From Rhodococcus wratislaviensis (lineage in GTDB: Bacteria > Actinomycetota > Actinomycetes > Mycobacteriales > Mycobacteriaceae), in NCBI RefSeq assembly GCF_900455735.1, contig NZ_UAUI01000022.1, forward strand, positions 558,001 to 622,000: DNA of 64,000 nt. Direction: 5' to 3'. Shown here piece by piece: positions 28,942 to 57,696 of this stretch. Position 1 is the first letter of the stretch, and every line of letters begins with the position of its first letter. The notes under the pieces are model-generated. The model was given only the letters and a program-made list of their open reading frames with translations, did not search any database and was not told the origin of the DNA. A program made the position numbers and the translations under genes.

Positions 28942-28959
28942 TCAACTGAAGTCAGTTCA
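28942..28959. promoter_or_regulatory. Island operator 1 (FAD oxidoreductase)
   Basis: TCAACTGAAGTCAGTTCA matches the 18-bp consensus TGAACTG-N4-CAGTTCA at 13 of 14 fixed positions. It lies 54 bases upstream of the oxidoreductase start. Confidence 0.75.
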
Positions 28960-29100
28960 AGCATTGGGGATGCATTTGCGACGAACAATCACCCCACCCC
29001 CTTACCCCCCATGCCCCGTGACGACATCGACCACCGGTAGGAATCCACATTTCGGTCCGCGATGTGATTGCCGACACAACAATTCCTCGATAGCATACTT

Positions 29101-29118
29101 TGAACTGAACTCAATTCA
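29101..29118. promoter_or_regulatory. Island operator 2 (LivK)
   Basis: TGAACTGAACTCAATTCA matches 13 of 14 fixed positions and abuts the AAGGAG ribosome site of the binding-protein gene, so a bound repressor would block initiation or elongation. Confidence 0.78.
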
Positions 29119-29128
29119 AGGAGTGGAT

Positions 29129-30289
29129 GTGCGGAAAACCCTTCTCACAGTCGGTGTAGTCCTCGCCACGGCATTGACGGCATGCGGAACACAAGCCGGC
29201 GGGGGCGATGCGGGCGGGCCGATCAAACTCGGCGCATGGCTTCCCCTTTCGGGGCCACAGGCCTCGGGGGGTCTGCCCCAGGAAGCCGGCACCCACGCGT
29301 TCTTCGATCAGCTCAACGAGGCTGGAGGAATCCACGGTCGCCCCGTCGAGTGGACCCCAGTCGACAACGCTTTCGACCCACAGCAGACGATTCAGGTGGC
29401 TCGACAGTTGGTCTCTCGCGACCGGGTTGTCGCGATCGTCAACGCAAACGGCACGGCAACCACGGAGGCGACGTTTCCATTCGTGCTCGAACAGAACGAC
29501 ATACCCATCTTCGGAACCTACGGCGGCTCCACCGCCTGGTACGACCCGCCGCGGGACGCTTTGTTCGGCAGCCAGACGCTCTACGAGAACCAGGCGCGCG
29601 CCGCCGCGCAGTGGGCGCTCCACGAGGGTGCCAAGAAGGTCACGATCATCCGCAACGATCCGGCAGCGTTCGTCAATGTGGGCGCAGTCGCCACGACCGA
29701 ACTCGAGAAGGCCGGCGCGGAGGTCTCGACGGTGGAGGTCAAGCTCGGTACCACGGACTACAGCCCGTTCGTGTCCCAGATCCGTTCGGCTGCACCCGAT
29801 GCAGTCCTGACGATCCTGCCGATCCAGGAGGCCGCTGCGTACCTCAACGAGATGGCTCTGCAGGGTGTCAAGATTCCCAGTTACGGCTACTCCCCCACGG
29901 TGGGTAACAGCTTGCTCGACCTCGCAGGTACGAACGCGGAAGGGTTCCGCGCCGTGTCACTGACGCTGCCGCCCACCGCCGATAACCCTGCGGTCGAGGA
30001 ATACCGACAAGCGCTTGCGAAGTACAAGCCGGGCGAGAAGCCCGATTTCTACTCGCTGGCAACCTATGGCTCGGCGAAAGCGTTTGCTCAGGTCCTCGCG
30101 AGCATCGACGGCGAGATCACGTCCAAGTCAATCACCGACGCGATAGTCACGAGCGGCACCCTCGACACCGGCGTGATGCCTCCACTCACGTTCGGTGTGG
30201 ATGAGCACCTCGGTACCGACAGCGTGGTCCGAGTCCAGGTAGAGGGCGGCAAGTTCGTTCCCATCGGAGACTTCGTGTCACCGCAGTAA
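29129..30289 (+). CDS. HAAT-type ABC transporter substrate-binding lipoprotein (LivK-like)
   Basis: A 386-residue lipoprotein with lipobox LTAC and a periplasmic-binding-protein type 1 fold: IKLGAWLPLSGPQASGG near the mature N terminus, NEAGGIHGRPVEW, QLVSRDRVVAIVNANGTATT and YDPPRDALFG. Such proteins feed Liv-type importers with branched-chain amino acids, aromatic acids or other carboxylates. GTG 29129 is chosen because AAGGAG precedes it by five bases; the ATG two bases earlier is out of frame. The cognate permeases and ATPases are encoded convergently at 31218-34656 and carry the same operator. Confidence 0.9.
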   Translation: MRKTLLTVGVVLATALTACGTQAGGGDAGGPIKLGAWLPLSGPQASGGLPQEAGTHAFFDQLNEAGGIHGRPVEWTPVDNAFDPQQTIQVARQLVSRDRVVAIVNANGTATTEATFPFVLEQNDIPIFGTYGGSTAWYDPPRDALFGSQTLYENQARAAAQWALHEGAKKVTIIRNDPAAFVNVGAVATTELEKAGAEVSTVEVKLGTTDYSPFVSQIRSAAPDAVLTILPIQEAAAYLNEMALQGVKIPSYGYSPTVGNSLLDLAGTNAEGFRAVSLTLPPTADNPAVEEYRQALAKYKPGEKPDFYSLATYGSAKAFAQVLASIDGEITSKSITDAIVTSGTLDTGVMPPLTFGVDEHLGTDSVVRVQVEGGKFVPIGDFVSPQ

Positions 30290-30294
30290 CACGT

Positions 30295-30335
30295 CGAGCG
30301 CATCCAGCTCGACGAGTCCGACCTGGATGCGCTCG
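30295..30335. terminator. Putative terminator after LivK
   Basis: Thirteen-base perfect arms (30295-30307, 30323-30335) enclose a 15-base loop. It starts six bases after the binding-protein stop, between convergent genes. Confidence 0.55.
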
Positions 30336-30373
30336 TGGCGAATACCGTCTTCCTGTTCCGCTCGGATGACCAG

Positions 30374-31171
30374 TCAGACGGTGAACCGTCCACGGTTGCT
30401 GAGTAGCACCGCACCCACGACGTTTCTGGCCTGCTCCGAAGCGAGAAACAGCACATTGTCCGCGATCTCGTCCGGGGTCGCGTACGGCACCGGTGTGTTG
30501 TTGACCCACTGCACTTTGAGTTCTTCTGGTGTGCGAGCGGCCATCCCGGTCTCCGTCGGGCCGGGAGCGACGAGGTTGAGTCGGATACCGAACGCCACGA
30601 CCTCCTTGGCGACAGCCTGGCAGAAGGCATGGACAGCAGCTTTCGACGCCGCGTAGTGCGGGTATCCCGTCAAGGTATCGAACGCTGAGGACGAGCCGAT
30701 CACGACGATCGAGCCGCCTTTCGGTTTCATCGCCCGTACGGCGGCGCGAACGACATGGAATGTTCCGTCCAGATTGACCGACATCACTCGGCGCCACTGC
30801 GTATCAGTGAGGTTCGCCGTCAGGTCGATCGGTCTGCCGGCGGCGGTCGCCTCCGTGATGATCTTCTTGGACTCCGCGTCGTCGACGCCGGCGGCGTGCA
30901 CGACGACGTCGAGCCGCCCCTCGGCGTCGAGGACCTCCGCCATCGCGGCATCGACGGCCCCCGGGTCCGAGACGTCGACCCCTCGTGCGACCGTCGTGGA
31001 GTCGTCCCCGTACCGTCGGCGCACATTCTCGACCACGATGTCGGCCACGTAGACGCGGGCAGCTCCCTCACCGACGAGTTGCGCGACGACGGCCGCTCCG
31101 ATTCCTGATCCGCCTCCAGTGACCAGGGCAACCGCGCCCTCGAATCTGCCGTGTCCTGCTGTTCTGTCCAT
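30374..31171 (-). CDS. Short-chain dehydrogenase/reductase
   Basis: A 265-residue SDR with GGGSGIGAA at the cofactor site, VVHAAGVDD, the active serine in VIGSSSAFD and catalytic YAASK. It should oxidise an alcohol or reduce a ketone in the island's pathway. A roughly 15-residue insertion (KKIITEATAAGRPIDLT) between the NAG-like motif and the next helix resembles hydroxysteroid dehydrogenase-type SDRs. It follows the Liv permease/ATPase genes on the same strand with a 46-base gap and is the last gene of that operon. The ATG at 31171 is set by the SDR N terminus. Confidence 0.86.
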   Translation of the reverse strand: MDRTAGHGRFEGAVALVTGGGSGIGAAVVAQLVGEGAARVYVADIVVENVRRRYGDDSTTVARGVDVSDPGAVDAAMAEVLDAEGRLDVVVHAAGVDDAESKKIITEATAAGRPIDLTANLTDTQWRRVMSVNLDGTFHVVRAAVRAMKPKGGSIVVIGSSSAFDTLTGYPHYAASKAAVHAFCQAVAKEVVAFGIRLNLVAPGPTETGMAARTPEELKVQWVNNTPVPYATPDEIADNVLFLASEQARNVVGAVLLSNRGRFTV

Positions 31172-31217
31172 CTTCGTCGGTATTCCCTTCGTCAGAGCCT
31201 GATCGAGCGCACTGCAG

Positions 31218-33782
31218 TCACCGGTCGATCTCGCCGACAACTGCAGGGATGTCTGTACCGAAGTAGGCAGCCTCGGCGATGCGGCTGAAGCCCGGAGTAC
31301 TGCTGTTGCCGCGCGCGACGGCCTCACCTTGGCGCAGAACAATGACCTCGCTGCAGGCTTCGAGCGCGCGGGCGAGCGACTGGTCCAGCAGGATGGTCGT
31401 AATGCCCCGGCGCGCCATGTCGTTCACCTGTGAATACACTTCGTCGACCATCGCCGGGGACAGACCCAGCGCGGGTTCGTCGAGGATCAGAACTTCGGGG
31501 TCGGCCATGAGCGCCCGGGCGATGGCGACAAGCTGTTGTTCGCCGCCGGACAGCGAGCCGGCCGGTATGTCCATGCGGGTGCGGACCCGTTCGGGAAGGC
31601 CTTGCCGCAACTCGTCGAGCCGATCACGCAGCGTACGACCGGAGATCCCCGCGGCATACGCCGCGACCTCGAGGTTCTCGCGCACCGACAGGGTGCGGAA
31701 CAAGGCGCGCCCCTCGGGAACCAGGCTGAGCCGCAGTGCGTCTGTGCCATTGACTGTCCGGGTGCCGCCGGTCGACTGCAGATCGCCGTGCAGGATCCGC
31801 CCCAGCGTGCTCTTGCCGGCGCCGTTCGCGCCCACGATGCCGAGGATTCCGCCTGCATGGACGTCGAGATCAATGCCGGACAATGCCTGCACACCCTCGT
31901 AGTGGTGCTCGATCCCCCGCACGGAGATCAACGGCGCCTCCGTGCGATCGATGTCGGGTGCGATCAGTGTGGTGTCGGTGTTTCCCAGATACGAGTCGCG
32001 GACCAGTTGGTTCTGCAGGACCGTGTCCGGGGTTCCATCGGCGATCAGCTCGCCGAAGTCGAACGCCACCACCCGATCTGCGACGGAGAACAGGTCGTCG
32101 AGGACGTGGTCGATGATGACGACGGAGGTACCGGAATGCGAGAGCCGGCGGATGTGGTCGGCGAGGGTGTGACGTTCGTCGGCGTCGAGGCCACCGAATG
32201 GTTCGTCGAGCACGATCAATCGTGGGTTGTCGGCCAGCGCCGCGATCGCACGGGCCAGATCGACCCGTTTCTGCAGCCCGAACGGCAGTTCTGCGGGGAG
32301 TCGGTGCACGTGGTCGGCCAATCCGACACTCTCGAGGACCTGCAACGCCGTGTCGCGATCAGCGCGCCGCCCCCAACGGTTGACGACACTGACATTTTCG
32401 AGAACGGTCAGTTCAGCGAAAAGCTCAGCATGCTGAAAAGTCCGGCCGAGGCCGAGCGAGCGTCGACGCGTCGCCCGCACGCCGTGCAGGGGCCGGCCAC
32501 CGAGTTCCATTGTCCCCACGAGTTCACCGCCACCGATCAGGCCACACAGGGCGTTGACGAAGGTGGTCTTGCCGGCGCCGTTCGGCCCGATGATCGCGAG
32601 CACCTCACCTGCATCTACGCGGAGGTCGATGTTGTGCACGGCCTGAAGGCCACCGAATCGAACACCGAGTGCCTCCGTTTTCAGCACGGCCGCCGCGGCG
32701 GTATCGGCCCGCGTGTCCGGAACCGATCCCTCAGTGTCGAGAAGGCTCGGTTGGGAGGTGGACAGCGTGGGGCGGCCGAGCGCACGGGTGAGCGGGACGA
32801 ATCGGCGCAGCACTCTCCCGGCCGTCGGGACGATTCCATCGGCGAGAAACAGCAGGGTGAGAATCAGGACACCCCCGATCAGGTAGGGCTGGTCGATCGA
32901 CAGCGACGACGCCAGAGTTGGTGCGGATGCGAGGAACGCACCACCGAGAACGGCTCCGATCACGCTGCCGGTCCCGCCGAGAACGGTCGCGGCAATCAGG
33001 TTGACCGCGAAGACCATCGAAAAGCCCTCCGGGCTGATGAAGCCCGAAAGCAAGGCAAGAAGCACACCGGACAAGCCGGCGACACCCGCGCTGATCGCGA
33101 AACCGAGGCTCGCCTGCAGTTCGGGAGCGATACCGATCGATCTGCCCGCCAGTGGGTGTGTCTTGGCCGCAACCATGCGCATACGTATGGTCGTGCGGCG
33201 CAGGAACACCGACACTGCCACAGCGAGACCGAGGACTCCGACGGAAAGGTAGGTGACTGCGTCGGATGACGGAACGAGTTCGCCGAGCGCGGTGTCGAAT
33301 GCGTCAACCGGCACTCCTTGGTCGCCGCCGGTGACGCTCTTCCACGCACCGATGATTTCGAGAGTCACCAATGTGAACGCCAACGTGAGAAGCGCGACGT
33401 ACAGCACGGAGAAGCGGGAGCCGGCGAACCCGAGGAAGCCTCCCAGCATTGCGCACAAAGCCACGGCGACAACGGACGTGAAGGCCAGTCCCCAACCGTT
33501 ACCGCTGCCGTAGGCGGTCACATACGCGCCGATCGCGACCATTGCGGGATGCCCGATCGACCAGATACCCGTCCACCCGGCCAATAACGAGATGGACAAG
33601 ACGATCAGTCCGTACACCGCAGCGAGTCCGACCGTGTAGATCTGGTAGCCGGGCACGAGTCCGGCAGACAGCATCATTATCGTCAGGATCGCCGCAGCCG
33701 GTCCGCCGAGAAACTGAGCGGCGCCGTACAGGCGCTGGGCAGAGCGTCCGGGACGCTGCGCCGAGTCATCTTTTGTGACCAT
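31218..33782 (-). CDS. LivM-LivG-LivF fusion: ABC importer permease with two ATPase domains
   Basis: An 854-residue single polypeptide. Residues about 1-330 are a LivM-type permease (YGLIVLSISLLAGWTGIWSIGHPA at the start of the core, VLGGTGSVIGAVLGG near its end). Residues about 365-605 form a LivG-type ATPase: Walker A GPNGAGKTT near 399, signature LPFGLQKRVDLARA near 504, Walker B LIVLDEPFGGLD. Residues about 618-850 form a LivF-type ATPase: GANGAGKST near 656, LSGGEQQLVAIARA near 747, LILDEPALGLSP. These are normally three genes. With LivH (4 bases upstream) and LivK the importer is complete. The frame extends further 5', but that part overlaps LivH. Confidence 0.92.
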   Translation of the reverse strand: MVTKDDSAQRPGRSAQRLYGAAQFLGGPAAAILTIMMLSAGLVPGYQIYTVGLAAVYGLIVLSISLLAGWTGIWSIGHPAMVAIGAYVTAYGSGNGWGLAFTSVVAVALCAMLGGFLGFAGSRFSVLYVALLTLAFTLVTLEIIGAWKSVTGGDQGVPVDAFDTALGELVPSSDAVTYLSVGVLGLAVAVSVFLRRTTIRMRMVAAKTHPLAGRSIGIAPELQASLGFAISAGVAGLSGVLLALLSGFISPEGFSMVFAVNLIAATVLGGTGSVIGAVLGGAFLASAPTLASSLSIDQPYLIGGVLILTLLFLADGIVPTAGRVLRRFVPLTRALGRPTLSTSQPSLLDTEGSVPDTRADTAAAAVLKTEALGVRFGGLQAVHNIDLRVDAGEVLAIIGPNGAGKTTFVNALCGLIGGGELVGTMELGGRPLHGVRATRRRSLGLGRTFQHAELFAELTVLENVSVVNRWGRRADRDTALQVLESVGLADHVHRLPAELPFGLQKRVDLARAIAALADNPRLIVLDEPFGGLDADERHTLADHIRRLSHSGTSVVIIDHVLDDLFSVADRVVAFDFGELIADGTPDTVLQNQLVRDSYLGNTDTTLIAPDIDRTEAPLISVRGIEHHYEGVQALSGIDLDVHAGGILGIVGANGAGKSTLGRILHGDLQSTGGTRTVNGTDALRLSLVPEGRALFRTLSVRENLEVAAYAAGISGRTLRDRLDELRQGLPERVRTRMDIPAGSLSGGEQQLVAIARALMADPEVLILDEPALGLSPAMVDEVYSQVNDMARRGITTILLDQSLARALEACSEVIVLRQGEAVARGNSSTPGFSRIAEAAYFGTDIPAVVGEIDR

Positions 33783-33786
33783 GGAA

Positions 33787-34656
33787 TCAGACCCTCTCGA
33801 AGGTTTGGCGGCCGAAGATGCCCTGGGGACGGATGAGCAGCACGAGCACCGCCACGCAGAAGACGAACGTGTCTCGGAAGCTGGCGGAGATATACGCTGC
33901 GGCCAGGTTGTCCAGGACACCGATGACGAGCCCACCGATGACCGCGCCGTACATGCTTGTGAGGCCACCGAGCAGGATGCCTGCGAAGGCACGGAACAAC
34001 ACGGGGGCGAGGATCACCGGCGAAACCCCGGTCTTCGGGGCGTACAAGAAGACACCCAGCACCGCCAGCGCCATGCCGAGTGCCCAGGCGATCCGCGCGA
34101 CCTTGTGCGCGTTGATGCCCAAGATCTCTGCGGTCTCAGCAGATTCGGCGACCGCGCGCATCGCGGATCCGACCGGCGTACGCGTGAACAGATACGCAAT
34201 GGCCGACACGGCCACCGCGGCGAGGAGAATCGTGGCGATGTCCTGCAGCATCAGGTTCGAATTGCCGATCGAGATCGTGCCGTCGACGAGCTGCGGGAAT
34301 CGACGCGGCTGCTCACCCCAGTAGTGGCCGATCAGATGCTCGACAATGATCGACAGCCCCATTGTGACGACGAGCGCAGCGAAGAGCTTCCCTTGCCCGA
34401 GCGGTCGAATCAGTGCTTCCCGCACCACGACTCCGCTGAGAGCTCCGAAGGCCACTGCGACCACCAGTGCGACAGCAATGCCCACGCCGGCCCCGTACGC
34501 GCTGAGGGCAACGTAGATGGCGAGGGTCGACAATGACGCCATTGCGAAATTCATGACGTCGGTGGATCGGAAGATGATGACCAATCCGAGTCCGATGAGA
34601 CCGTACACGGCACCGTTGGCGATGCCGGTGGTCAAAGTGATGAACAACTGGTCCAC
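33787..34656 (-). CDS. HAAT-type ABC transporter permease (LivH-like)
   Basis: A 289-residue membrane protein with about eight helices. LivH landmarks are ITTLTTGIANGAVYGLIGLG-like N-terminal residues, VMNFAMASLSTLA, the conserved cytoplasmic loop TPVGSAMRAVAESAETAEILGIN and LFRAFAGILLGG. It pairs with the permease half of the fused protein downstream. GTG 34656 has GGAGG four bases upstream; a longer reading would run through the operator and promoter. First gene of an operon with the fusion protein and an SDR. Confidence 0.9.
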   Translation of the reverse strand: MDQLFITLTTGIANGAVYGLIGLGLVIIFRSTDVMNFAMASLSTLAIYVALSAYGAGVGIAVALVVAVAFGALSGVVVREALIRPLGQGKLFAALVVTMGLSIIVEHLIGHYWGEQPRRFPQLVDGTISIGNSNLMLQDIATILLAAVAVSAIAYLFTRTPVGSAMRAVAESAETAEILGINAHKVARIAWALGMALAVLGVFLYAPKTGVSPVILAPVLFRAFAGILLGGLTSMYGAVIGGLVIGVLDNLAAAYISASFRDTFVFCVAVLVLLIRPQGIFGRQTFERV

Positions 34657-34687: not shown

Positions 34688-34705
34688 TGAGCTGACTTCA
34701 GTTCA
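34688..34705. promoter_or_regulatory. Island operator 3 (LivH operon)
   Basis: TGAGCTGACTTCAGTTCA matches 13 of 14 fixed positions and lies 32 bases upstream of the LivH start. Confidence 0.78.
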
Positions 34706-34750: not shown

Positions 34751-34796
34751 CCCGTGAGTACTTGTTAACCGCGGGCGGTTAACAAGTACTCACGGG
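34751..34796. repeat. Palindromic element, copy 2 (GTGAGTACTT family)
   Basis: Twenty-base perfect arms (34751-34770, 34777-34796). The middle GCGGGC allows two more pairs, so the structure is almost fully double-stranded. It contains the stop codon of the FMN oxidoreductase (34765-34767) and lies upstream of the LivH promoter, separating the two units. Confidence 0.9.
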
Positions 34797-36699
34797 CGAC
34801 GGCACGGCCTTCGGAGATGGCGTGTGCGACCTTGCGCGGCACGAGCGCGTCGCCGATGACGTGCACGCGTGCGTTGACCGGTGCGAGTTGCGACCAGTCG
34901 CGTGGGCGTCGCTCACCGGCCACGACCACCCGGTCGACGTCGAGACGCGTCCTCTGCCCCGACAGGGTGTTCTCGAATTCGACCGAACCGTCGCAGACCG
35001 CGACGAGAGACGACAGCACGCGCACGTCGACCGGTTTGCCCGACAGCCGACGCAGGTACTGCACCCGGCCCTCCGCCGGAAGACCCGAGGCGAAGGCCGC
35101 GGCGGGCGTCAGAACCGTCACGCGGTCGGCACCCGCGGCAAGCGCCGCTTCGACGGTGCTCGCTGCGGGCCAGAGCCCGAATCCGTCGTCGACCACCACG
35201 ACGTGGCCGGCCCCGCGAAGAGCTTCTCCCCCACCCAGCAGGGCGTGAGAGGTGAGCACGGACGCCGTTCCCGCCAACGTCTGGGGCAGTTCTTCCACGG
35301 CACCGACGGCCAGCACTACGTCGTCGAAGTTCTCCAGTTCGACGGCGCTCACGGTGCGCGCAAGATGGATTGCGACCTTCGGCATGTTGTCGGAGTAGTA
35401 GTCGAGGAGGCGACGCCAGCCGCTGCGGTGTGGCGCGTCTGCCGCTGTCGCCAGCTGGCCTCCGATCCGCTCTCGCCCTTCGAAGAGCGTGACGTCGTGG
35501 TCGGGTCCGAGCCGCATCGCGCACTCGAGCCCGGCGGGACCGGCACCGACGACGGCGATCCGTCTCCGCTCTCTCGACCCGCGCGTGGGCCCCAGCGTCA
35601 GCGGGTACGCGGGACGTGCGGAATGACCCGGCGGCGCGAGGTCGGGATTGACCGAGCACAGTAGGACGGGGTCGAATGCCCGGCAGTCCTCGTTGCAGGA
35701 CACGCACGGGCGGATCGACGCCTCGCGGCCGGTCAGTATCTTCCGCGGGAAGTCCGGGTCGGCGATCAGCGGTCGTGCCATACCGACGAGGTCGGCACCC
35801 GACTGCAGCGCGGTTTCGATGGACGCACCGGTCCGGAACGACTGCGACACGAGCAGCGGGGTCACTGCGGCGGCGCGCAACTGTCCGACCGAATCGAGCA
35901 GCGGCGGGTCGGTGACAGCCATGTCCCGGACGTAGGTGGTGCGGACGCCGACCGTGACGTTGACGTAGTCGAAATCGGAGAGGTACGGCAGGACGTCGCA
36001 GAGTCCGTCCATGCTCAGGCCGGCCTCGTCGCTGCCGTCAGCGGAGACGCGGACTCCGAGGACGATACCGGGGCAGGCGTCGCGGACCGCGCGGGCGATG
36101 CGGTCGAGGAGGTGCGTCCGCTGAGACGTTGTCGCGGCATCTCGGCCGAGGTTCGTGTTCGGTGAGAGGAATTGCGCAAGTAGGTATCCGTGGGCCGCGT
36201 GCAGTTCGACGACGGGAAAGCCGGCCGACCAGGCGTGGACAGCGGATATGCGGAATGCGTCGACGATCCCCTCGACGTCGGCGCCGGAGAGGGCGCGCGG
36301 TCGCGTCGGTTCGCGGGGCGAGCGGACAGCGGACGGCCCGACGGGATGACTCCACATCTCGGCACCCAGCGTTTCGCGTCCGAGGTGCACCAGCTGGCAG
36401 GCGGCGATGGCTCCTTCGTCGGTGATCGCCCGCGCCCGAGCCTCCAGGCCGGCGAGGACTTCGGGACGCCAGGCCTCGGTGATGTTGCCGTTGCGATTGG
36501 TCGAACCAGGCGACACCACGGTGCCGCCGACGATGAGCATCGCGGCACCGCCGGCCGCGCAGCGCCGCCAGTAGTCGTCGTCGCCGCGTGAGGGGATGCC
36601 GCCGGCGACGGCTCCCGAGGCGTGCGGCGTACCGACGAGCCGGTTTGCCAGCCGAATCGGGCCTAGCTGGAGCGGCCGCGCCGCACGTGGAGTCGTCAT
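34765..36699 (-). CDS. FMN/4Fe-4S/FAD oxidoreductase (2,4-dienoyl-CoA reductase-like)
   Basis: A 644-residue enzyme of the old-yellow-enzyme plus FAD type. The N-terminal TIM barrel binds FMN (LANRLVGTPHAS, QLVHLGRE, ELHAAHGYLLAQFLSP). The iron-sulfur ligands are in CVSCNEDCRA and LLCSVNP around residues 335-350, and the C-terminal half binds FAD or NAD(P)H (VVGAGPAGLECA near 385). Members reduce activated C=C bonds such as dienoyl-CoAs, or demethylate. In this island it probably saturates a conjugated enoyl intermediate. ATG 36699 has GGAGG upstream. The last residues (EYLLTARG) are encoded by the palindrome. Confidence 0.87.
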   Translation of the reverse strand: MTTPRAARPLQLGPIRLANRLVGTPHASGAVAGGIPSRGDDDYWRRCAAGGAAMLIVGGTVVSPGSTNRNGNITEAWRPEVLAGLEARARAITDEGAIAACQLVHLGRETLGAEMWSHPVGPSAVRSPREPTRPRALSGADVEGIVDAFRISAVHAWSAGFPVVELHAAHGYLLAQFLSPNTNLGRDAATTSQRTHLLDRIARAVRDACPGIVLGVRVSADGSDEAGLSMDGLCDVLPYLSDFDYVNVTVGVRTTYVRDMAVTDPPLLDSVGQLRAAAVTPLLVSQSFRTGASIETALQSGADLVGMARPLIADPDFPRKILTGREASIRPCVSCNEDCRAFDPVLLCSVNPDLAPPGHSARPAYPLTLGPTRGSRERRRIAVVGAGPAGLECAMRLGPDHDVTLFEGRERIGGQLATAADAPHRSGWRRLLDYYSDNMPKVAIHLARTVSAVELENFDDVVLAVGAVEELPQTLAGTASVLTSHALLGGGEALRGAGHVVVVDDGFGLWPAASTVEAALAAGADRVTVLTPAAAFASGLPAEGRVQYLRRLSGKPVDVRVLSSLVAVCDGSVEFENTLSGQRTRLDVDRVVVAGERRPRDWSQLAPVNARVHVIGDALVPRKVAHAISEGRAVAREYLLTARG

Positions 36700-36712: not shown

Positions 36713-36730
36713 TGAACTGGATTCAGTTCA
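36713..36730. promoter_or_regulatory. Island operator 4 (FMN oxidoreductase), perfect copy
   Basis: TGAACTGGATTCAGTTCA is a perfect match to the consensus with 7-base inverted arms. It lies 14 bases upstream of the oxidoreductase start. Confidence 0.85.
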
Positions 36731-48983: not shown

Positions 48984-48998
48984 GAGTGTCACCTTTGC

Positions 48999-50559: not shown

Positions 50560-51758
50560 GCGTACTTCTTCAGTTCGAGACGCGCAATGGTGCGCAGATG
50601 GACTTCGTTCGGACCGTCGGCGATCTGCAGTGCCCGGGTGATCGCATACAGCCGGGCCAGGATCGTGTCGTCACTCACCCCGGCCGCGCCGTAGGTCTGG
50701 ACGGCGTGGTCGACCACTCGATGAGCGACCTCCATGGCCGCAACCTTGATCGCGGCGACTTCCGACCGGGCGGCGGCGTTGCCGCGGGTGTCCATCAGCC
50801 ACGACGACTGGAGAACCAGCAGCCGGATCTGGTCGATCTCCATCCGGCTGCGCGCGATCCACTCCCGTACCACACCGCGATCAGCGAGCGGCGCACCGAA
50901 GGCAGTGCGCTGCAGAGCCCGTCGGCACATCAGCTCGAGGGCGCGCTCGGCCATGCCGATCGCTCGCATCGCGTAGTGCATGCGCCCCGGCCCCAGCCGG
51001 CCCTGCGCAATCGCGAAACCGTCTCCCTCGGCGCCGAGCATGTGGTCGGCCGGCACCCGGACATCCGTGAACTGGACCTCGCCGTGACCGAGCCGGTCCC
51101 GGTACCCGAACATGGGCAGATCGCGAAGGACCTCGATACCGGGAGAATCCGCGGGCACCAGGATCATGCTCTGCTGCCGGTAGGTCGGAGCCTCGGGATC
51201 GGACTTGCCCATGAAGATGACGAGCTTGCAATCAGGGTCGAGAATGCCTGAGGTGTACCACTTCCGGCCGTTCAGGACGTACTCGTCGCCGTCCCGGCGG
51301 ATGGTCGACGTGATGTTCGTGGCGTCCGAACTCGCCACATCCGGTTCCGTCATGGCGAACGCCGACCGGATCGTGCAGTCGAGGAGCGGCGCGAGCCACC
51401 GTGACTGTTGTTGCTCGGTGCCGTACATGGCGAGGATCTCCATGTTGCCGGTATCGGGTGCCGAACAGTTGATGGCCTCGTTGCCGATCACCGAGCGTCC
51501 GACCATCTCGGCGAGCGGGGCGTACTCGAGGTTGGTGAGACCGGCGCCCCACCCGCCGTGCGTCATGAAGAGATTCCACAATCCGAGCTCGCGCGCCTTC
51601 GCCTGCAGGTCGAGCATGACCTTGGGCTGCTCGTGTGGGTTGTCGTTCGACTTGATCTGCTCGTCGTACACGGCCTCGGCCGGATAGACGTGCTCTTCCA
51701 TGAAGTTCCGCAGCTGCTCGAGCAATCGCTCGGTGCGCGCGGAGTATTCGAAGTCCAC
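50556..51758 (-). CDS. ACAD10/11-type acyl-CoA dehydrogenase-fold protein
   Basis: A 400-residue acyl-CoA dehydrogenase-fold protein. FAMTEPDVASSDATNI, GRKWYTSG, LGPGRMHYAMR and the C-terminal ADGPNEVHLRTIA are the marks of the ACAD10/ACAD11 branch. In place of the YEGT-type loop with the usual catalytic glutamate it has ADGPNE. In animals ACAD11 cooperates with its own APH-type kinase domain to dehydrate 4-hydroxyacyl-CoA through a phosphorylated intermediate; here a kinase gene lies 50 bases upstream. I prefer GTG 51758, with AGAGAGG seven bases upstream, over ATG 51782, which has no ribosome site. Confidence 0.86.
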   Translation of the reverse strand: MDFEYSARTERLLEQLRNFMEEHVYPAEAVYDEQIKSNDNPHEQPKVMLDLQAKARELGLWNLFMTHGGWGAGLTNLEYAPLAEMVGRSVIGNEAINCSAPDTGNMEILAMYGTEQQQSRWLAPLLDCTIRSAFAMTEPDVASSDATNITSTIRRDGDEYVLNGRKWYTSGILDPDCKLVIFMGKSDPEAPTYRQQSMILVPADSPGIEVLRDLPMFGYRDRLGHGEVQFTDVRVPADHMLGAEGDGFAIAQGRLGPGRMHYAMRAIGMAERALELMCRRALQRTAFGAPLADRGVVREWIARSRMEIDQIRLLVLQSSWLMDTRGNAAARSEVAAIKVAAMEVAHRVVDHAVQTYGAAGVSDDTILARLYAITRALQIADGPNEVHLRTIARLELKKYA

Positions 51759-51808
51759 GTGAGGTCCTCTCTGTTCCGTCATCGCGTCACGCGGTGGACG
51801 GAGGTTGA

Positions 51809-52771
51809 TCAGGCAAGTAGCGCAGTCCCGCTGCGGATGAGCTGCGCGATGGTGTCGGGCAGCCGTTCCTGGTCGGGGTCGTGGTGGCGGCCTTCGCGGT
51901 GCCGGCGCAGGTTGTGGCCCATGATCGCCGCCATCTTCAGACGGCCGAGTGCGTTGAACCAGTTCATGTCCGGCAGCGCCGGGTGATCCCCGGTGTAGAG
52001 GTCGATCAGTTCGTCCTCGGACGGCAGGTCCGGCACCGCGCGCCCCACCCCGGGAAAGTTCGCACCGTCGGCGAACACGAGGAACCAGCCCAATTCGACC
52101 CGCGGATCGCCCAGGCTCCAGATCTCCCAGTCGATCAAAGCCACCGGCTCCGTGCCACGGGCGATGATGTTGCCCAGCCGGTAGTCACCGTGTACCAACG
52201 TCGGTGCCAGCGCCTCGGGAAGATCTGCGGCGAGGAGGCGCAGGAGTTCGTCGCCGCCGCTGACGAGGTCGGGGGGAACGGCATCCAGGGTTCGTTTCCA
52301 CCGCGCCAGCTCCGCACCGGGTGACAACGGATCTCCGGCCGCCAGGATCGTGTCGACCGGCACCGCGTGCAGCAGCGGCAGCACCGCGGCGGCCCGGCGC
52401 ATCCGCGCCGCCGCGACAGCCGGTTCGACCGGAGGCGAATCGAGCACCGGCTCGAGTGACTCCCCGGCCACGCACTCCATCGCGAACCACGCCGGGCCGT
52501 CCTCGTCGACGGCGACGATCCGGGGTACGGGGACCTCTGTCGCCCCCAGAGTTTCCATGATCCTCGCCTGGCGCACCATGTCGTGTCGCCCGATGGGGCG
52601 TTGCCCCTCGGGAACCGCCTTGACCACGAGGTCGCCGTCGCTGGTCTGCACCTTGTACGTCAGACCCGAATGCCCCCCGAGCAGCGGCTCGAGTGTGCCG
52701 ACGTCCAGACCGGGGTTCTGCTCGCGCAGCCGATGCGCCACACGGTCGTCGAGGGTGATCGTTGCGCTCAC
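51809..52771 (-). CDS. APH-family phosphotransferase (ACAD10/11-kinase/LvaA-like)
   Basis: A 320-residue kinase-fold protein. The nucleotide loop is in LLGGHSGLTYKV, a lysine in LVVKAVPEG, the catalytic loop HGDYRLGNII and the metal-binding aspartate in ALIDWEIW, all typical of the APH/choline-kinase family. Relatives fused to or next to ACAD-type enzymes phosphorylate the 4-hydroxyl of acyl-CoAs. Drug resistance is unlikely given the context. It starts with GTG overlapping the stop of one acyl-CoA dehydrogenase gene and is followed by the ACAD11-type gene, so the three proteins are made together. Confidence 0.86.
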   Translation of the reverse strand: MSATITLDDRVAHRLREQNPGLDVGTLEPLLGGHSGLTYKVQTSDGDLVVKAVPEGQRPIGRHDMVRQARIMETLGATEVPVPRIVAVDEDGPAWFAMECVAGESLEPVLDSPPVEPAVAAARMRRAAAVLPLLHAVPVDTILAAGDPLSPGAELARWKRTLDAVPPDLVSGGDELLRLLAADLPEALAPTLVHGDYRLGNIIARGTEPVALIDWEIWSLGDPRVELGWFLVFADGANFPGVGRAVPDLPSEDELIDLYTGDHPALPDMNWFNALGRLKMAAIMGHNLRRHREGRHHDPDQERLPDTIAQLIRSGTALLA

Positions 52772-53973
52772 GCGCGCGGCTCCCTCGGCAGGCCGAGCAC
52801 GCGCTCGGCGAGGATGTTTCGCTGGATCTCGTCGGTACCGCCCGCGATGCGATACCCGGGCGCGCCGAGCACATGCTCCGTCCACGCGAACGTTCCCCAC
52901 TCGCCCGAGTCGGCGATCAGATCGCGCCCCAGCAACAGCCGGACGACTTCCGATGTACGTGCCATGGTGTCGGTGGCGAGCAACTTACCCACCGATGCCT
53001 CGGGACCGGGGTCCTTGTCGGCGACGACTGCCGCGGCCACCCGCATACCGGTCACCCGCTGGACGTAGCTGCGCGTCACGAGATCCGCGACCTTGTCACG
53101 TTCGATTTCGGTCAGCTGCCGGTCGAGGTGATGGGCCAGTTCGACGGCGTGATCGGCATTGGCCAGACCTAGGTTCCCGGCGTCGAGTCGTTCGGCTGCC
53201 AGTACCGTCAGGGCGACCGGCCAACCCTCCCCCACCGGCCCCAGCCGGTAGTCGTCCGACAGTTCGACGCCGTCGAGGTAGACCTCGTTGAAGGAACTGC
53301 CCCCGGTCATCTGGCGGATGGGCCGGACGGTGACTCCCGGAGCGTCCATCGGGATCAGGAAGACGGTGAGGCCTGCGTGTTTGGTCGCGTCGGGGTCGGT
53401 GCGGCACACCGCGACCCCGACGTCGGCGACCCGGGCGCCGGACGTCCAGACCTTGTGCCCGGTAATCGTCCACCGGCCATTCCGTTCGACTGCCCTCGTC
53501 CGTACCGCGGCAAGGTCGGATCCGGCTTCGGTTTCCGAAAACAGCTGGCAGGCAATGATGTCGGTCCGAAGCATCGCACGCACATACCGCTCGCACTGTT
53601 CCGGTGTTCCCCATTGGGCGATCGCCGGAGCGACCAGTTGCTGAGTCACCGAGAACATTTCGGTCCGGCGCGGCACGTCGAATGCGTTCTCCTCCCGCCG
53701 GAACGCGAGCACGTAGGACATCGGCAGACCACGGCCACCGTACTCGGCCGGCCAGTTCATCGAGCCCCAGCCGGCGTCGAACTTCGTCTGTTCGTACGCC
53801 CGGATATGGTCGGTCTCGTCGCGCTCCTGCTCGGCCGTCCAATTCTCGAAGACGGCGACCGAGTCGGATCCCACTCCCCATTTGATCTGGGTGCGCGGTT
53901 CCGCGACAGTTCTCAGCCACGCCCGCGCTTCATCCACGAACTGGTCCAGGTCGGGCATCGTTGCTTGATTCAT
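52768..53973 (-). CDS. Acyl-CoA dehydrogenase (FadE, GGTDEIQ type)
   Basis: A 401-residue dehydrogenase. FSETEAGSDLAAV, GHKVWTSGA and the C-terminal GGTDEIQRNILAERVLGLP fix the family; the bulky W in NWPAEYGG is common in actinobacterial FadE subunits. The usual catalytic glutamate in the YEGT loop is replaced by G in IAGGTDE, as in subunits of heteromeric dehydrogenases that act on large or cyclic acyl-CoAs. The likely partner is the 379-residue paralogue at 56455-57594. The stop overlaps the kinase GTG. Confidence 0.87.
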   Translation of the reverse strand: MNQATMPDLDQFVDEARAWLRTVAEPRTQIKWGVGSDSVAVFENWTAEQERDETDHIRAYEQTKFDAGWGSMNWPAEYGGRGLPMSYVLAFRREENAFDVPRRTEMFSVTQQLVAPAIAQWGTPEQCERYVRAMLRTDIIACQLFSETEAGSDLAAVRTRAVERNGRWTITGHKVWTSGARVADVGVAVCRTDPDATKHAGLTVFLIPMDAPGVTVRPIRQMTGGSSFNEVYLDGVELSDDYRLGPVGEGWPVALTVLAAERLDAGNLGLANADHAVELAHHLDRQLTEIERDKVADLVTRSYVQRVTGMRVAAAVVADKDPGPEASVGKLLATDTMARTSEVVRLLLGRDLIADSGEWGTFAWTEHVLGAPGYRIAGGTDEIQRNILAERVLGLPREPRA

Positions 53974-53982
53974 GGCTCTTCC

Positions 53983-55131
53983 TCAGACGGACAGGACGGT
54001 GCAGGCACTGATTCCGGGCGCACCGTAGACGTGGGTGAATCCGACGCGCGGGTGTCCGGGAACCTGCCGGGCACCGGCCTCCCCGCGCAATTGCGTGACG
54101 ATCTCGTGTATCTGCCGGAGGCCGGAGGCACCGATCGGTTCCCCGTTGGCGATACATCCGCCGTCGGTGTTGATCGGGATTCGGCCGCCGATCTCCGTCT
54201 CGCCGGCCGCAATCAGTTTTTCTTGTTCGCCGTGCTCGCAGAATCCGCATTCGGCCATGTGCATGATCTCGGCACCGCTCTCCGTGTCCTGGAGTTGCGC
54301 GACATCCACATCCGAGGGACCGAGTCCGGCCTGCTCGAATGCGGCGGCGGCGGTGGACGTGCTCACACTCGACGGGGTTCCCTGGCCCTGAATCGACGGA
54401 CCGAACACCTCGAAGGAACCGAACCGGCGGGTACCCGCCGAGATTCCCCGTATGTGCACCGGTCTTCCGCCGAGGCGCCGGGCGGCGGCCTCACTCGCCA
54501 CGACCACGGCGGCTCCGCCCTCGCCGGGCGAGCAGAACATGTATCGCGTCAGCGGGTCGTTGACCATGTCCGCTGCGGCGATCGTCTCAGCGGAAATCGG
54601 TTCGCGGCGCCAGGCATTCGGGTTCAGCGAGCCGTTGCGATACGCCTTCTCCGCCACGGCGGCCAGAGTCGGTGCGCTGATCCCGTGTTCGCGCATGTAG
54701 CGCGCGATCTTGATGCCGAAGAACTGGGTGGTGACCATCAGGCCTGCCTCGCCGTAGCCGACGGGCAGACCCCAATCCTGCGGTGCCGGGTCGAAGGCGC
54801 CGCGCGGATGCTTGTCGAAGCCGACCGCGAGTGCGATGTCGGCGGCCCCCGAGCGAATCGCGTTGACGGCCGACACCAACGCACTACCGCCGGTCGCGCA
54901 ACCGTTCTTGACGTTGGTGAAAGGTATGCCGGTGAGCCCGAGCTCGGCGACCAGGGTGTCGGCGAGCCCGGACCCGTCGCTGCCACCGAATGCGACCTGA
55001 ACATCGGTCCACGCGATGCCTGCGTCGGTCAGCGCGGACGCAATTGCATCCAGCGCCAGCCGGCGGCCGCTCTTGCCCGGCTGACGTCCGAACTTCGAGA
55101 GTCCGGCCCCGACGATCGACACGGCGGACAT
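53983..55131 (-). CDS. SCP2-type thiolase/aldolase (Ltp-like)
   Basis: A 382-residue thiolase-fold enzyme of the lipid-transfer-protein branch. The nucleophilic cysteine is in NGCATGGSAL near residue 80. A second region reads CSPGEGGAAVVVAS. The position of the classic GHPxGATG carries GEPIGASG, with glutamate instead of the catalytic histidine, and the C terminus is HVYGAPGIS. It is coupled to a DUF35 gene (TGATG), the same pairing as in Ltp2-type retro-aldolases of steroid side-chain breakdown. Either thiolytic or aldol cleavage of a beta-oxidation intermediate is possible. Confidence 0.85.
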   Translation of the reverse strand: MSAVSIVGAGLSKFGRQPGKSGRRLALDAIASALTDAGIAWTDVQVAFGGSDGSGLADTLVAELGLTGIPFTNVKNGCATGGSALVSAVNAIRSGAADIALAVGFDKHPRGAFDPAPQDWGLPVGYGEAGLMVTTQFFGIKIARYMREHGISAPTLAAVAEKAYRNGSLNPNAWRREPISAETIAAADMVNDPLTRYMFCSPGEGGAAVVVASEAAARRLGGRPVHIRGISAGTRRFGSFEVFGPSIQGQGTPSSVSTSTAAAAFEQAGLGPSDVDVAQLQDTESGAEIMHMAECGFCEHGEQEKLIAAGETEIGGRIPINTDGGCIANGEPIGASGLRQIHEIVTQLRGEAGARQVPGHPRVGFTHVYGAPGISACTVLSV

Positions 55132-55508
55132 CAGCGGATCTCCTTCAGATAGGCGTCGGTGGCGAAGTGGGGCACCGGTGCCGTGGCGATCAAGGTCACC
55201 GGCGCCCCGTCGTCCAACTCGTCGAAGTCGTGGCATTCGAGCACGGCTTCGATCCTGATTCCCTCGGGGAGTTCGACGTATCCGACGGCGAACGGCGCGA
55301 AGCCGTTCGGCGGCGGGACGTACGGCGGAGATTTCGGGGCGAACCGCTGAACCGTGTACGCCCAGACCGTTCCGCGTGTGCTCAGAGTGAACGGCGACAT
55401 CGCCGGTCGTGAGCACTGCGAGCACAGACTGGTGGCCGGGAACGCGACAGTCGAGCAGTGGGAGCACCGGCTCGCGCCGAGCGCCGGCGCGGTGTGTGTC
55501 TCGCCCAT
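55131..55508 (-). CDS. DUF35 OB-fold/zinc-ribbon partner of the thiolase
   Basis: A 125-residue protein with a rubredoxin-like zinc ribbon (CSHC ... CSQC, about residues 16-33) followed by an OB-fold (GTVWAYTVQRFAP, FAVGYVEL, GAPVTLI). Such proteins bind Ltp/SCP2-type thiolases or aldolases, and sometimes the companion MaoC-type hydratase, and are needed for their activity or substrate channelling. ATG 55508 has a GAGAGG six bases upstream; ATG 55514 would be too close to it. Its stop overlaps the thiolase start by one base. Confidence 0.87.
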   Translation of the reverse strand: MGETHTAPALGASRCSHCSTVAFPATSLCSQCSRPAMSPFTLSTRGTVWAYTVQRFAPKSPPYVPPPNGFAPFAVGYVELPEGIRIEAVLECHDFDELDDGAPVTLIATAPVPHFATDAYLKEIR

Positions 55509-55545
55509 CCTCATCCTCTCCTCGGGATTCGTCGTCGGTGTCGGA

Positions 55546-56334
55546 TCAGCGACCGACCCAGACCGGCTCACGCTTTTCGAGGAAGGCGTTCACGCCTTCG
55601 CGTGCGTCCTCGGACTGCAGCGCATTGCCGACGGCGAGGTGCTCCATCACCATCAACGACTGGATGTCCGCGTCGAGACCGCGGTCGATGCACATCTTGG
55701 TGAGCTTCATCATGAACGGGCTCTTGTCGACGATCGGGGCGATGAACTCGGCGACAAGCTTGTCGAGGTCTTCGGCCGGCGCCGAGGCGTTGATCAGGTC
55801 GAAGGCCTCCGCCTCCTTGCCGGTCAGGAGTTTCCCGGTCAGCATGAGCTCCTTGGTCTTCCGAATGCCGATCATCCGCGGGAGCCGGTAGATCGGGCCT
55901 GCCCCACCGAACAGCGCGCGGCGGATGTGGAAGTCGCCGATGCGAGCGTCCTCGGCGGCGACGGCGAAGTCGCAGGAGATCATGAGCTCGAAACCGCCTG
56001 CGGTGACGAAGCCTTCGAGGACCGCGACGGACGGCGTGTTCATCGAGTACAGGCGGTCGCACACCTTGGCGGACAGCACGGCGACGTCCATCGCGGTGGT
56101 GGAGCCGACGTACTTCTCGCGCAGTTCGTCGAGATCGAAGCCCGAGCAGAAGGTGCCGTCGCGTCCACGCAGGACGAGCACCTTGAGGCTGGGGTCGTTG
56201 TCGACCTCCACGATGATCTCGTCGAGGCGATGCAGCAGCTCGACGGTGACCGCGTTCTTCTTGTGCGGGCGGTTGAGCCATACGCGGGCGACGTCGCCGT
56301 CCTTCTCGAGCACGATGTGGTCGGTGTCCACCAT
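55546..56334 (-). CDS. Enoyl-CoA hydratase/isomerase-family protein
   Basis: A 262-residue crotonase-fold protein. RVWLNRPHKKNAVTVELL, GRDGTFCSGFDL and the oxyanion segment TAGGFELMISCDFAVAAEDARIG fix the family. The glutamate equivalent to the first catalytic residue of hydratase is kept (FELM). The second glutamate, normally in a PE motif, is replaced (DFHIRR). It may therefore be an isomerase, hydrolase or one-base hydratase rather than a standard hydratase. ATG 56334 has AAAGGA seven bases upstream. It leads a nine-gene operon ending with the alcohol dehydrogenase. Confidence 0.84.
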   Translation of the reverse strand: MVDTDHIVLEKDGDVARVWLNRPHKKNAVTVELLHRLDEIIVEVDNDPSLKVLVLRGRDGTFCSGFDLDELREKYVGSTTAMDVAVLSAKVCDRLYSMNTPSVAVLEGFVTAGGFELMISCDFAVAAEDARIGDFHIRRALFGGAGPIYRLPRMIGIRKTKELMLTGKLLTGKEAEAFDLINASAPAEDLDKLVAEFIAPIVDKSPFMMKLTKMCIDRGLDADIQSLMVMEHLAVGNALQSEDAREGVNAFLEKREPVWVGR

Positions 56335-56359
56335 GTCGGTGTCCTTTCGAGGGAGAAAC

Positions 56360-56377
56360 TGAACTGGATTCACTTCA
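56360..56377. promoter_or_regulatory. Island operator 9 (nine-gene operon)
   Basis: TGAACTGGATTCACTTCA matches 13 of 14 fixed positions and lies 26 bases upstream of the crotonase start. Confidence 0.8.
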
Positions 56378-56454
56378 GTTCTACTGGGTGGGAGATGGTC
56401 CGTCAATAGGGCGGAGCAAGAGGTTTCGATTCAGCCGGGGGGAGGTGCTGGGAT

Positions 56455-57594
56455 TCAGAGCCCGACGAGATCCGCGACGCGTCTGCGGTGCGCTCGTGAA
56501 TCACCCAGAAGCGGTTCGTCACCGAGCGCGCGGCGAACGTAGGAATGCGCCGCATGTTCCCAGGTGAAGCCGACACCGCCATGCAATTGCACGGCCTCGA
56601 GGGCGGTGCCGATCGCGGCCTCGGTGCAGATTGCCCCCGCGACCGCGGCCGGGAGCGCCGCGGAGTCCGGGTCTTCCGAGAACACGGCGGCCGCATACCG
56701 CGCCGCCGATCGAGCCTTCTCCAACTCGACCAAAGTGTTGGCCAGTCGATGCTTGACGGCTTGGAAGGAGCCGATCGCTCGCCCGAACTGGTGGCGCTGC
56801 ATCGTGTAGTCCGTTGTGCTTTCGAGTAAACGATCGACGATTCCCACATGTTCGCAGGCCAGCCCGATCACCCCCAGGCTGTGCAGTGATGCGGCCGTCC
56901 GCAGTGCGTCGCGGGGTCCGACGAGACGCACGGCGTCCGCGTCGTCGAAGAGCAGATTCGCCTGCCGCCGACTGGGATCGATGACCGGAAGCTCCGTACG
57001 CCGCATCGCGGCGGTACGCAGGTCGACCGCATAGAGGCCGGGCCCCTCGTCACCGCGCCCGAGTAGCACGACGATATCGGCCGCGCCGCCCTGCACGACG
57101 TTGGTCGCGCGGCCGGACACCGACCAGCGACCTCCGGCTCGGGTGGCGTCGACGAAATCGGTGTCCGGGCTCAGAGCTGTCACGGTGGCGACGAGTTCGC
57201 CCTGGACGACCCGCCCCAGCAGGTCGTCGACCTGCGGGCACCGGTCGGCCGCGAGCAGGGCGCGCACTCCCAGCGTCGCGGACGTGAGCACCGGTTCACA
57301 GACCAGCGCGCGCCCGCATTCTTCGAGAACGATCCCGAGTTCGACCACGCCGTAACCCAGGCCCCCGCGATCTTCCGGCACCGCCAGCGCGGCGACGTTC
57401 ATCTCCTTGACGAGAAGCGACCACAACTCAGGGGAATAGCCGATCTCGGACTCGGCGGCGAGACGGCCGGCCTCGAGCGTCGAATGTCGATCCAGCAATT
57501 GGCGGACTACGGCCCGGATATCGTCGTGCTCGGCGACGGGCGTCATCGCCGGGGGTTCGGTCTCGGGCCAGGGACGGGCATGGGGGAACGGCAT
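56455..57594 (-). CDS. Acyl-CoA dehydrogenase subunit (FadE, lacking the catalytic glutamate loop)
   Basis: A 379-residue dehydrogenase paralogue. VRQLLDRHSTLEAGRL, VPEDRGGLGYG, RHQFGRAIGSFQAVKH and the C-terminal QLHGGVGFTWEHAAHSYVRRA place it with the short subunits of actinobacterial heteromeric dehydrogenases; it lacks the GGTxEI(Q) end. It is expected to pair with the 401-residue protein at 52768-53973, as alpha and beta chains of one enzyme (inference). GAGGAG precedes the ATG. It is a separate unit, divergent from the SnoaL-like pair, with its own operator. Confidence 0.85.
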   Translation of the reverse strand: MPFPHARPWPETEPPAMTPVAEHDDIRAVVRQLLDRHSTLEAGRLAAESEIGYSPELWSLLVKEMNVAALAVPEDRGGLGYGVVELGIVLEECGRALVCEPVLTSATLGVRALLAADRCPQVDDLLGRVVQGELVATVTALSPDTDFVDATRAGGRWSVSGRATNVVQGGAADIVVLLGRGDEGPGLYAVDLRTAAMRRTELPVIDPSRRQANLLFDDADAVRLVGPRDALRTAASLHSLGVIGLACEHVGIVDRLLESTTDYTMQRHQFGRAIGSFQAVKHRLANTLVELEKARSAARYAAAVFSEDPDSAALPAAVAGAICTEAAIGTALEAVQLHGGVGFTWEHAAHSYVRRALGDEPLLGDSRAHRRRVADLVGL

Positions 57595-57611
57595 GGAACT
57601 CTCCTCTAAAT

Positions 57612-57629
57612 TGACGTGAGTTCAGTTTA
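57612..57629. promoter_or_regulatory. Island operator 10 (acyl-CoA dehydrogenase)
   Basis: TGACGTGAGTTCAGTTTA matches 11 of 14 fixed positions and lies 18 bases upstream of the dehydrogenase start. Confidence 0.65.
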
Positions 57630-57678
57630 GTTTCGCGGAAGCTGCCGCGGCAAGAACCCTCGACAAGCCCCACCGGGT

Positions 57679-57696
57679 TGAACTAAGTTCATTTCA
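57679..57696. promoter_or_regulatory. Island operator 11 (SnoaL pair)
   Basis: TGAACTAAGTTCATTTCA matches 12 of 14 fixed positions. Its last base is the A of the ATG at 57696, so the message is probably leaderless or nearly so and a bound repressor would cover the start site. Confidence 0.7.

Follow-up and report, generated by a model that had tools for sequence, protein, structure and literature searches.

A candidate palindromic operator and a TetR-family protein predicted to repress a conserved acyl-CoA catabolic regulon in Rhodococcus wratislaviensis

The stretch of DNA analyzed here, a window of 64,000 nucleotides from the 7.78-Mb genome of Rhodococcus wratislaviensis (assembly GCF_900455735.1; positions 558001 to 622000 of contig NZ_UAUI01000022.1, hereafter C14), contains a catabolic island in which one 18-bp palindrome recurs in front of gene after gene, raising the question of whether a single regulator governs the whole set. 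The initial annotation had read this layout as a complete, undescribed single-repressor catabolon run by the only TetR-family gene of the island. The palindromes and their places, a second cluster with further copies on another contig, and the joint conservation of site and TetR gene across actinobacteria can be seen directly. The regulon is real, widely conserved, and of a known kind, i.e., a TetR-run acyl-coenzyme A (acyl-CoA) catabolon, although it is not complete within the island. We assign a probability of roughly 0.8 to the interpretation that the eleven palindromes are operators of the TetR protein encoded at 45641 to 46279, which would repress both the island and the second cluster, on contig C26; its release would come from an acyl-CoA, predicted to be an intermediate of the pathway.

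The motif TGAACTGN4CAGTTCA or a variant was present at all eleven positions annotated between 28942 and 57696 (Table 1), with 0 to 3 mismatches in ten sites and 4 in the site at 47859. A pattern search of the window returned 11 matches (ten of these sites and an overlapping place at 57607), versus a mean of 1.28 and a maximum of 7 in 100 shuffles, and a motif-free count of all 7-N4-7 palindromes ranked the half-site TGAACTG first (6 occurrences versus 0.0 in 20 Markov copies). In a position matrix built from the 11 island sites and 4 sites on C26 (the own-genome matrix), the island sites, which are themselves part of the matrix, scored 22.4 to 31.5 bits, and the top score in the window outside the island was 7.2 bits. 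With start codons picked by reading frame and ribosome-site-like sequence, and transcription units predicted from gene layout, each of eleven units is preceded by one site lying 0 to 53 bases from the likely start, inside the roughly 75 bases first claimed. One of these sites precedes the gene of the sole TetR regulator in the island, which is predicted to be autoregulated. This is the layout of a single-repressor catabolon, in which a common operator type stands ahead of every predicted unit, the regulator gene included. The genes for acyl-CoA dehydrogenase 3, the enoyl-CoA hydratase operon, the CoA ligase, TetR, and the EthD operon follow one another in the same orientation, which makes read-through between them possible.

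Because a first, looser pattern yielded 278 places in the whole genome versus 164 for its control, it was replaced by a tight pattern, TGAANTGANNTCANTTCA with at most 2 mismatches, with the reversed pattern as control. The tight pattern found 17 places versus 0 for the control. Of these, 11 fall in the island, where they cover all sites but 45580, four are on C26, and one each is on C12 and C19, the latter two scoring 10.4 and 7.1 bits, far under all fifteen sites. For 11 of the 17 places to fall within 28.8 kb, the binomial probability is 2e-23. The statement of the initial annotation that no sites lie outside the island stands for the window but fails for the genome, given the four on C26.

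These four sites (coverage of C26 extended to 40 kb of the 101-kb contig) adjoin a flavin reductase gene, a gene run with a luciferase-like monooxygenase, and genes for a short-chain dehydrogenase/reductase (SDR) and an aldehyde dehydrogenase. In Rhodococcus jostii RHA1 (G018), most of the C26-cluster genes, without the aldehyde dehydrogenase, are found with sites, one of them at C2:1044646, on the megaplasmid pRHL1 (C2, NC_008269.1), where a site also stands at a paralogue (80%) of the island flavoprotein (C2:1049000). R. jostii NBRC 16295 (G023) has a different satellite (L060, C61:10001-30000), in which three sites above 24 bits accompany genes for a solute-binding protein paralogue at 91%, a thiolase relative at 28%, an enoyl-CoA hydratase relative at 32%, and a 727-residue protein. 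Copies of the luciferase-like gene with 98 to 100% identity occur in 2 of 28 genus genomes, and ten distant homologues (L146-L155, 44 to 51% identity) showed no site of at least 14 bits within their loci of 3.6 to 4.1 kb; for these reasons we no longer count the luciferase-like cluster among the regular members of the regulon. A gene for a riboflavin-pathway 3,4-dihydroxy-2-butanone 4-phosphate (DHBP) synthase, RibB-like, at C26:18853-19911 (L001) has the genes of the luciferase-like enzyme and of the flavin reductase as neighbours, a position that would suit a supplier of flavin mononucleotide to both.

The putative repressor belongs to the TetR family (TetR_N, 42.1 bits with a cut-off of 24; TetR_C_24, 65.6 bits with a cut-off of 26.4), and its structure model is all-helical (pLDDT, i.e., predicted local distance difference test, of 87.9). 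It is single in its genome, the next paralogue being 31% identical. Within the genus, 10 of 28 genomes, this one included, encode the protein at E 1e-40 or better, and the surroundings of the gene in ten relatives (nine of the genus, one of another genus of the family) retain much of the island, with sites present. Genus genomes with the TetR gene held on average 14.2 motif places (control, 1.5) versus 5.5 (control, 1.9) in those without it (Mann-Whitney p = 5e-5; per megabase, p = 0.001).

A wider orthologue set came from a scan of named genomes, in which 177 loci encoded a TetR relative; the best 80 were kept, and they represent Rhodococcus, Nocardia, Williamsia, Gordonia, Aeromicrobium, Nocardioides, Dietzia, Streptomyces, and others. 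In these loci, 216 sites reached at least 17 bits with the own-genome matrix, versus 11 in reversed sequence and 0 in three runs of Markov sequence, and 186 of the 216 lay near the 5′ end of an open reading frame (ORF), versus 21% of random places. A motif-free palindrome count in 50 non-Streptomyces loci (L067-L116) returned TAAACTG, TGAATTG, TGAAATG, TGAAGTG, and TGAACTG as the top five half-sites, all of them variants of the motif, in 27 to 35 of the 50 loci versus 0 to 1.0. The shuffle, Markov, and reversed controls, together with the motif-free counts, led us to reject chance or a composition artefact as the origin of the sites. The recognition helix of TetR reads VGIGQTALYHYFES in 49 of the 50 loci parsed out of the 80, and VGIGQTTLYHYFES in one. 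The palindromes might instead be bound by a regulator encoded elsewhere, which would serve both loci and for which the TetR gene would be merely one target; no TetR of the island kind was found among the ORFs tested beside the C26 sites, and other TetR-type genes lie in the first 6.5 kb of that contig, no closer than about 10 kb to any site. We regard such an outside regulator as unlikely, since at least one site accompanies this TetR in 77 of the 80 loci though other genes vary, and the motif is absent from nine loci of TetR paralogues.

Several observations weigh against TetR 45641-46279 as the common repressor. The TetR-type genes on C26 may encode regulators of that cluster, whose site at C26:21735 is 203 bp upstream of its gene. 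Pattern matching, not the matrix, was applied to the genome, and as its tight form passed over 45580, further weak sites may be present in other places. Genus genomes without the TetR gene still exceed the control in motif places, and related motifs may therefore serve other regulators, even if 2 of these 18 genomes are incomplete (74 to 75%). Three of the 80 loci (L084, L108, and L129) showed no site within reach by the matrix; in L084 and L108 the island genes are likewise missing or just distantly similar. In 21 Streptomyces loci the motif-free count failed, with TGAACTG in 2 of 21 and other sequences, probably conserved among close species, ranking first; there, the motif was recovered by the matrix alone, and this failure lowered our confidence from 0.82 to 0.80. 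A matrix of 45 Streptomyces sites did rank the eleven island sites first in the window (places within 5 bp merged), which is not an independent test, as those sites were chosen with the own-genome matrix. The best place directly before the TetR gene is weak (2.3 to 15 bits) in several Nocardia and all Streptomyces loci, and since close species supply many of the 80 loci, counts over them do not represent independent events. The structural neighbours of TetR also include DarR and EthR, regulators of other ligands. Finally, matches to the ACAD11-like dehydrogenase of the island occur in 25 of the 28 genus genomes, 15 of them without TetR, and this enzyme alone fixes no substrate.

Many of the sites share a further feature. 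Among 181 strong sites (window, C26, and 80 loci), 112 carried a second match of at least 12 bits at a 5-bp shift, versus 35 when flanks were shuffled (standard deviation, 5; maximum, 49 in 200 rounds); the pairs 34683/34688 and 57607/57612 are examples in the window. QacR is a precedent for two overlapping dimers on one operator, and the shifted palindrome suggests a similar arrangement here. All seven close relatives have one more predicted operator, 5′ of the PotA-type gene. In the window this operator is missing at a gap near 39378..39396, where four of the seven relatives, by alignment, have 24 to about 116 more bases, suggesting its loss by deletion, so that the transporter is probably driven from 36773 in this genome. 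Two more distant relatives with a different island order (G021 and G013) lack a site at the PotA-type position.

Do TetR and its operator belong to a system already described? KstR2 is the second-best structural neighbour of TetR, and the island encodes an IpdE2-like dehydrogenase and a ketosteroid-dehydrogenase-like flavoprotein, all of which would suit an island within the cholesterol (KstR2) regulon. For that regulon in mycobacteria and rhodococci, PMC3068626 gives the 14-bp operator AnCAAGnnCTTGnT, which stands at three places. With 0 to 1 mismatch, this motif has no match inside the island, its two one-mismatch places in the window both lying outside it, so that the claim of a distinct operator holds with respect to KstR2. 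At 26 to 27% identity to KstR2, TetR was rejected as its orthologue, and membership of the island in the KstR2 regulon seems to us very improbable. The exact narrow KstR2-type motif does occur in the genome at C21:34185, C21:36303, and C14:453203 (134 kb away); the second place adjoins a TetR gene (C21:36362-36895), 30% identical to that of the island, which may be the KstR2 of this genome.

TetR could also be an activator or a general FadR-like regulator of fatty acid metabolism with the island as just part of its targets, as FadR is among its near fold neighbours and it matches the NCBIfam model of Bacillus FadR (NF053878). The score of 45.2 bits is nevertheless under the 200-bit cut-off, on which ground a general FadR identity was rejected, and the strong genome sites form two clusters instead of being scattered, leaving this option improbable. 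Bacillus FadR, also of the TetR family, differs from the island protein (19 to 20% identity), and the inner half-site bases of its operator differ from the island motif. Another rhodococcal TetR-family repressor, the lactone-responsive QsdR of R. erythropolis (PMC6262395), resembles the predicted repressor of the island in controlling a degradative operon with a CoA ligase; it differs in sensing the lactone ring itself and in its three-gene cluster. The 60 matches listed for TetR, out of 74, do not include the QsdR structure 4ZA6. No description of the regulon or motif was found in the open-access literature, most subscription papers being beyond reach of the search, which agrees with the system having been called undescribed; of 68 papers with text matches to the motif words, the 25 listed had only the shortest word, CTGAGTTCAG, and none was on a bacterial operator by title.

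Table 1. Candidate operators and genes of the regulon (window positions unless a contig is named; scores from the own-genome matrix)
Feature	Position	Strand	Context	Score or evidence
Operator 1, TCAACTGAAGTCAGTTCA	28942..28959		5′ of FAD-dependent reductase gene (start 28888, 53 bp)	29.5 bits
Operator 2, TGAACTGAACTCAATTCA	29101..29118		5′ of Liv-type binding protein gene (likely GTG 29129, 10 bp)	31.5 bits
Operator 3, TGAGCTGACTTCAGTTCA	34688..34705		5′ of LivH (likely GTG 34656, 31 bp); overlapped by second palindrome 34683 (18.7 bits)	
Operator 4, TGAACTGGATTCAGTTCA	36713..36730		5′ of OYE-type reductase (start 36699, 13 bp); perfect arms	30.4 bits
Operator 5, CAAACTGATATCAGTTCA	36773..36790		5′ of alpha/beta hydrolase (likely ATG 36807, 16 bp)	26.9 bits
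Operator 6, TGACCTGAATTTGGTTCA	45580..45597		5′ of EthD-family gene (likely start 45571-45565, ~8 bp)	25.5 bits
Operator 7, TGAACTGAGGTCAGGTCG	46315..46332		5′ of TetR gene (start 46279, 35 bp)	22.4 bits
Operator 8, TGAAGTGAACTAGTTTCA	47859..47876		5′ of CoA ligase (likely ATG 47842, 16 bp)	24.9 bits
Operator 9, TGAACTGGATTCACTTCA	56360..56377		5′ of main operon (likely ATG 56334, 25 bp)	30.9 bits
Operator 10, TGACGTGAGTTCAGTTTA	57612..57629		5′ of acyl-CoA dehydrogenase 3 (start 57594, 17 bp); overlapped by second palindrome 57607 (19.9 bits)	
Operator 11, TGAACTAAGTTCATTTCA	57679..57696		Ends on the A of the likely start codon 57696 (SnoaL-like gene; 0 bp)	27.9 bits
C26 site	C26:16897		5′ of flavin reductase, 11 bp	
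C26 site	C26:17013		5′ of SnoaL-like, luciferase-like monooxygenase, RibB-type run, 14 bp	
C26 site	C26:21735		5′ of SDR, 203 bp	
C26 site	C26:27007		5′ of aldehyde dehydrogenase, 38 bp	
FAD (flavin adenine dinucleotide)-dependent fumarate-reductase/ketosteroid-dehydrogenase-like flavoprotein	27545..28888	-		NCBIfam below cut-offs; PDB flavocytochrome c
Branched-chain-type periplasmic binding protein (Peripla_BP_6), Liv-type	29129..30289	+		Domain match
LivH-type permease, LivM-LivG-LivF-type fused protein, SDR	30374..34656	-		Profile matches
Old-yellow-enzyme (OYE-type)/2,4-dienoyl-CoA-reductase-like flavoprotein	34765..36699	-		Profile matches, PDB
Alpha/beta hydrolase, solute-binding protein, SDR, PotA-type ATPase, fused permease, SDR	36807..43101	+	Single gene run	Middle SDR from reading frame
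EthD-family protein, MBL-fold hydrolase, CurA/alkenal-type double-bond reductase	43169..45571	-		Profile matches
TetR-family regulator, predicted repressor	45641..46279	-		TetR_N + TetR_C_24
Acyl-CoA ligase (FadD-like)	46340..47842	-		Profile match
Main operon: enoyl-CoA hydratase, OB-fold protein, SCP2-type thiolase, acyl-CoA dehydrogenase 2, APH-type kinase, ACAD11-like dehydrogenase, two SDRs, zinc alcohol dehydrogenase	47916..56334	-		
Acyl-CoA dehydrogenase of ACAD11 type	50556..51782	-	Main operon	
APH-type kinase, relative of ACAD11 kinase domain	51809..52900	-	Main operon	HGDYRLGN + DWE motifs
Acyl-CoA dehydrogenase 3	56455..57594	-		Nearest NCBIfam model IpdE2, 184 bits (cut-off 450)
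Small SnoaL/NTF2-like protein	57696..58082	+		SnoaL_2 19.6 bits (cut-off 27); name of R. qingshengii homologue

Island genes were annotated by NCBIfam and Pfam profile searches and named by family, since most NCBIfam matches fell under the curated cut-offs; the OB-fold protein of the main operon, seen as a reading frame, was named after its R. qingshengii homologue. One Liv-type frame (31218-33992) encodes an unusual 924-residue fusion in which LivG-type and LivF-type ABC ATPase domains follow about 430 residues that, judging from their place, probably form a LivM-type permease; six near relatives share it at 88 to 96% identity over more than half its length. A near-perfect palindromic 18-mer, TTAACCGCGGGCGGTTAA, stands both at 34765-34782, at the end of the OYE gene, and at 58483-58500, beyond the right end of the island; the two copies are perhaps transcription terminators. 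The island flanks include a sensor kinase gene and, near the left end, a purD-like gene (24573-25826), a 98 to 99% homologue of which lies near the island in five relatives (G001, G005, G006, G019, and G024), suggesting a fixed insertion place. Directly left of the island is a gene for a Beta-lactamase2-family protein (25965-27053); two relatives, G018 and G005, likewise have a homologue of it close to the island.

What the regulon degrades is less firmly indicated. The APH-type kinase bears the motifs by which such kinases are recognized (HGDYRLGN at 237 and DWE at 257) and matches the ACAD11 kinase domain at E 6e-16. The neighbouring dehydrogenase matches ACAD11 at E 1.7e-123, the next other named type being medium-chain dehydrogenase at 2.3e-40; its top PDB match is 4hr3, a putative acyl-CoA dehydrogenase, and ACAD11 is among the best PDB relatives of both proteins. 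The pair resembles LvaA/LvaC of Pseudomonas and ACAD10/ACAD11 of animals (PMC12440821), here as separate, adjacent genes; it differs from them in its setting, a far larger regulon that is predicted to be under TetR control and that includes two importers and several ene-reductases. Considered together, the importers, reductases, CoA ligase, beta-oxidation enzymes, and split relative of ACAD11 make 4-hydroxyacyl-CoA catabolism our best guess, within a predicted pathway for the breakdown of hydroxylated acids. Nearly as probable is some other substrate, e.g., a cyclic terpenoid or steroid-like ring, with the kinase in another role: the OYE, ketosteroid-dehydrogenase-like, CurA-like, and IpdE2-like enzymes point to an enone or ring, and the best PDB relatives of the luciferase-like protein include 3,6-diketocamphane monooxygenase. 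Against another substrate speaks the adjacency of the kinase and dehydrogenase genes, both at 45% identity or more, in 64 of the 80 loci, whereas flavoprotein, OYE, and CurA-like genes at this identity occur in 12, 15, and 10 of the 80 (10-kb flanks). The two ideas are compatible, as a ring can be opened to a hydroxy acid. The open-access literature on terpenoids and abscisic acid provided nothing usable for the pathway.

Judged from site placement and from the co-occurrence of motif and protein across actinobacteria, TetR is likely the single repressor of a large catabolic pathway, and we propose the following course of regulation. At each unit, a TetR dimer, or often two dimers 5 bp apart, would sit over the promoter or the start of the gene. 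The substrate would be imported by the two ABC importers and then reduced, and the CoA ligase would convert the acid to an acyl-CoA that lifts repression everywhere at once, the TetR gene included. With less confidence, we propose that the APH-type kinase would phosphorylate 4-hydroxyacyl-CoAs and that the ACAD11-like dehydrogenase would turn the products into enoyl-CoA ahead of beta-oxidation. In strains with the second cluster, the luciferase-like flavin monooxygenase would feed in further substrates. A broader picture, which we put forward tentatively and with the odds somewhat against it, is that of an undescribed actinobacterial master repressor that senses an acyl-CoA and, through one operator occupied by two dimers 5 bp apart, runs the uptake and degradation of hydroxy acids and of the rings or lactones from which they come, having in Rhodococcus also captured a megaplasmid monooxygenase cluster.

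The two-replicon layout and the shifted double palindrome make this regulon unusual among TetR-run acyl-CoA catabolons. From the sequence, one can name a regulator along with its likely operator and targets and trace all three through many actinobacteria, and an unassigned catabolic pathway is thereby open to direct test in an ordinary laboratory strain, R. jostii RHA1. The pRHL1 cluster would, if the proposed control is true, clearly exemplify plasmid genes under a chromosomal repressor, and the ACAD11-like pair would offer bacterial material for a reaction described just recently in mammals.

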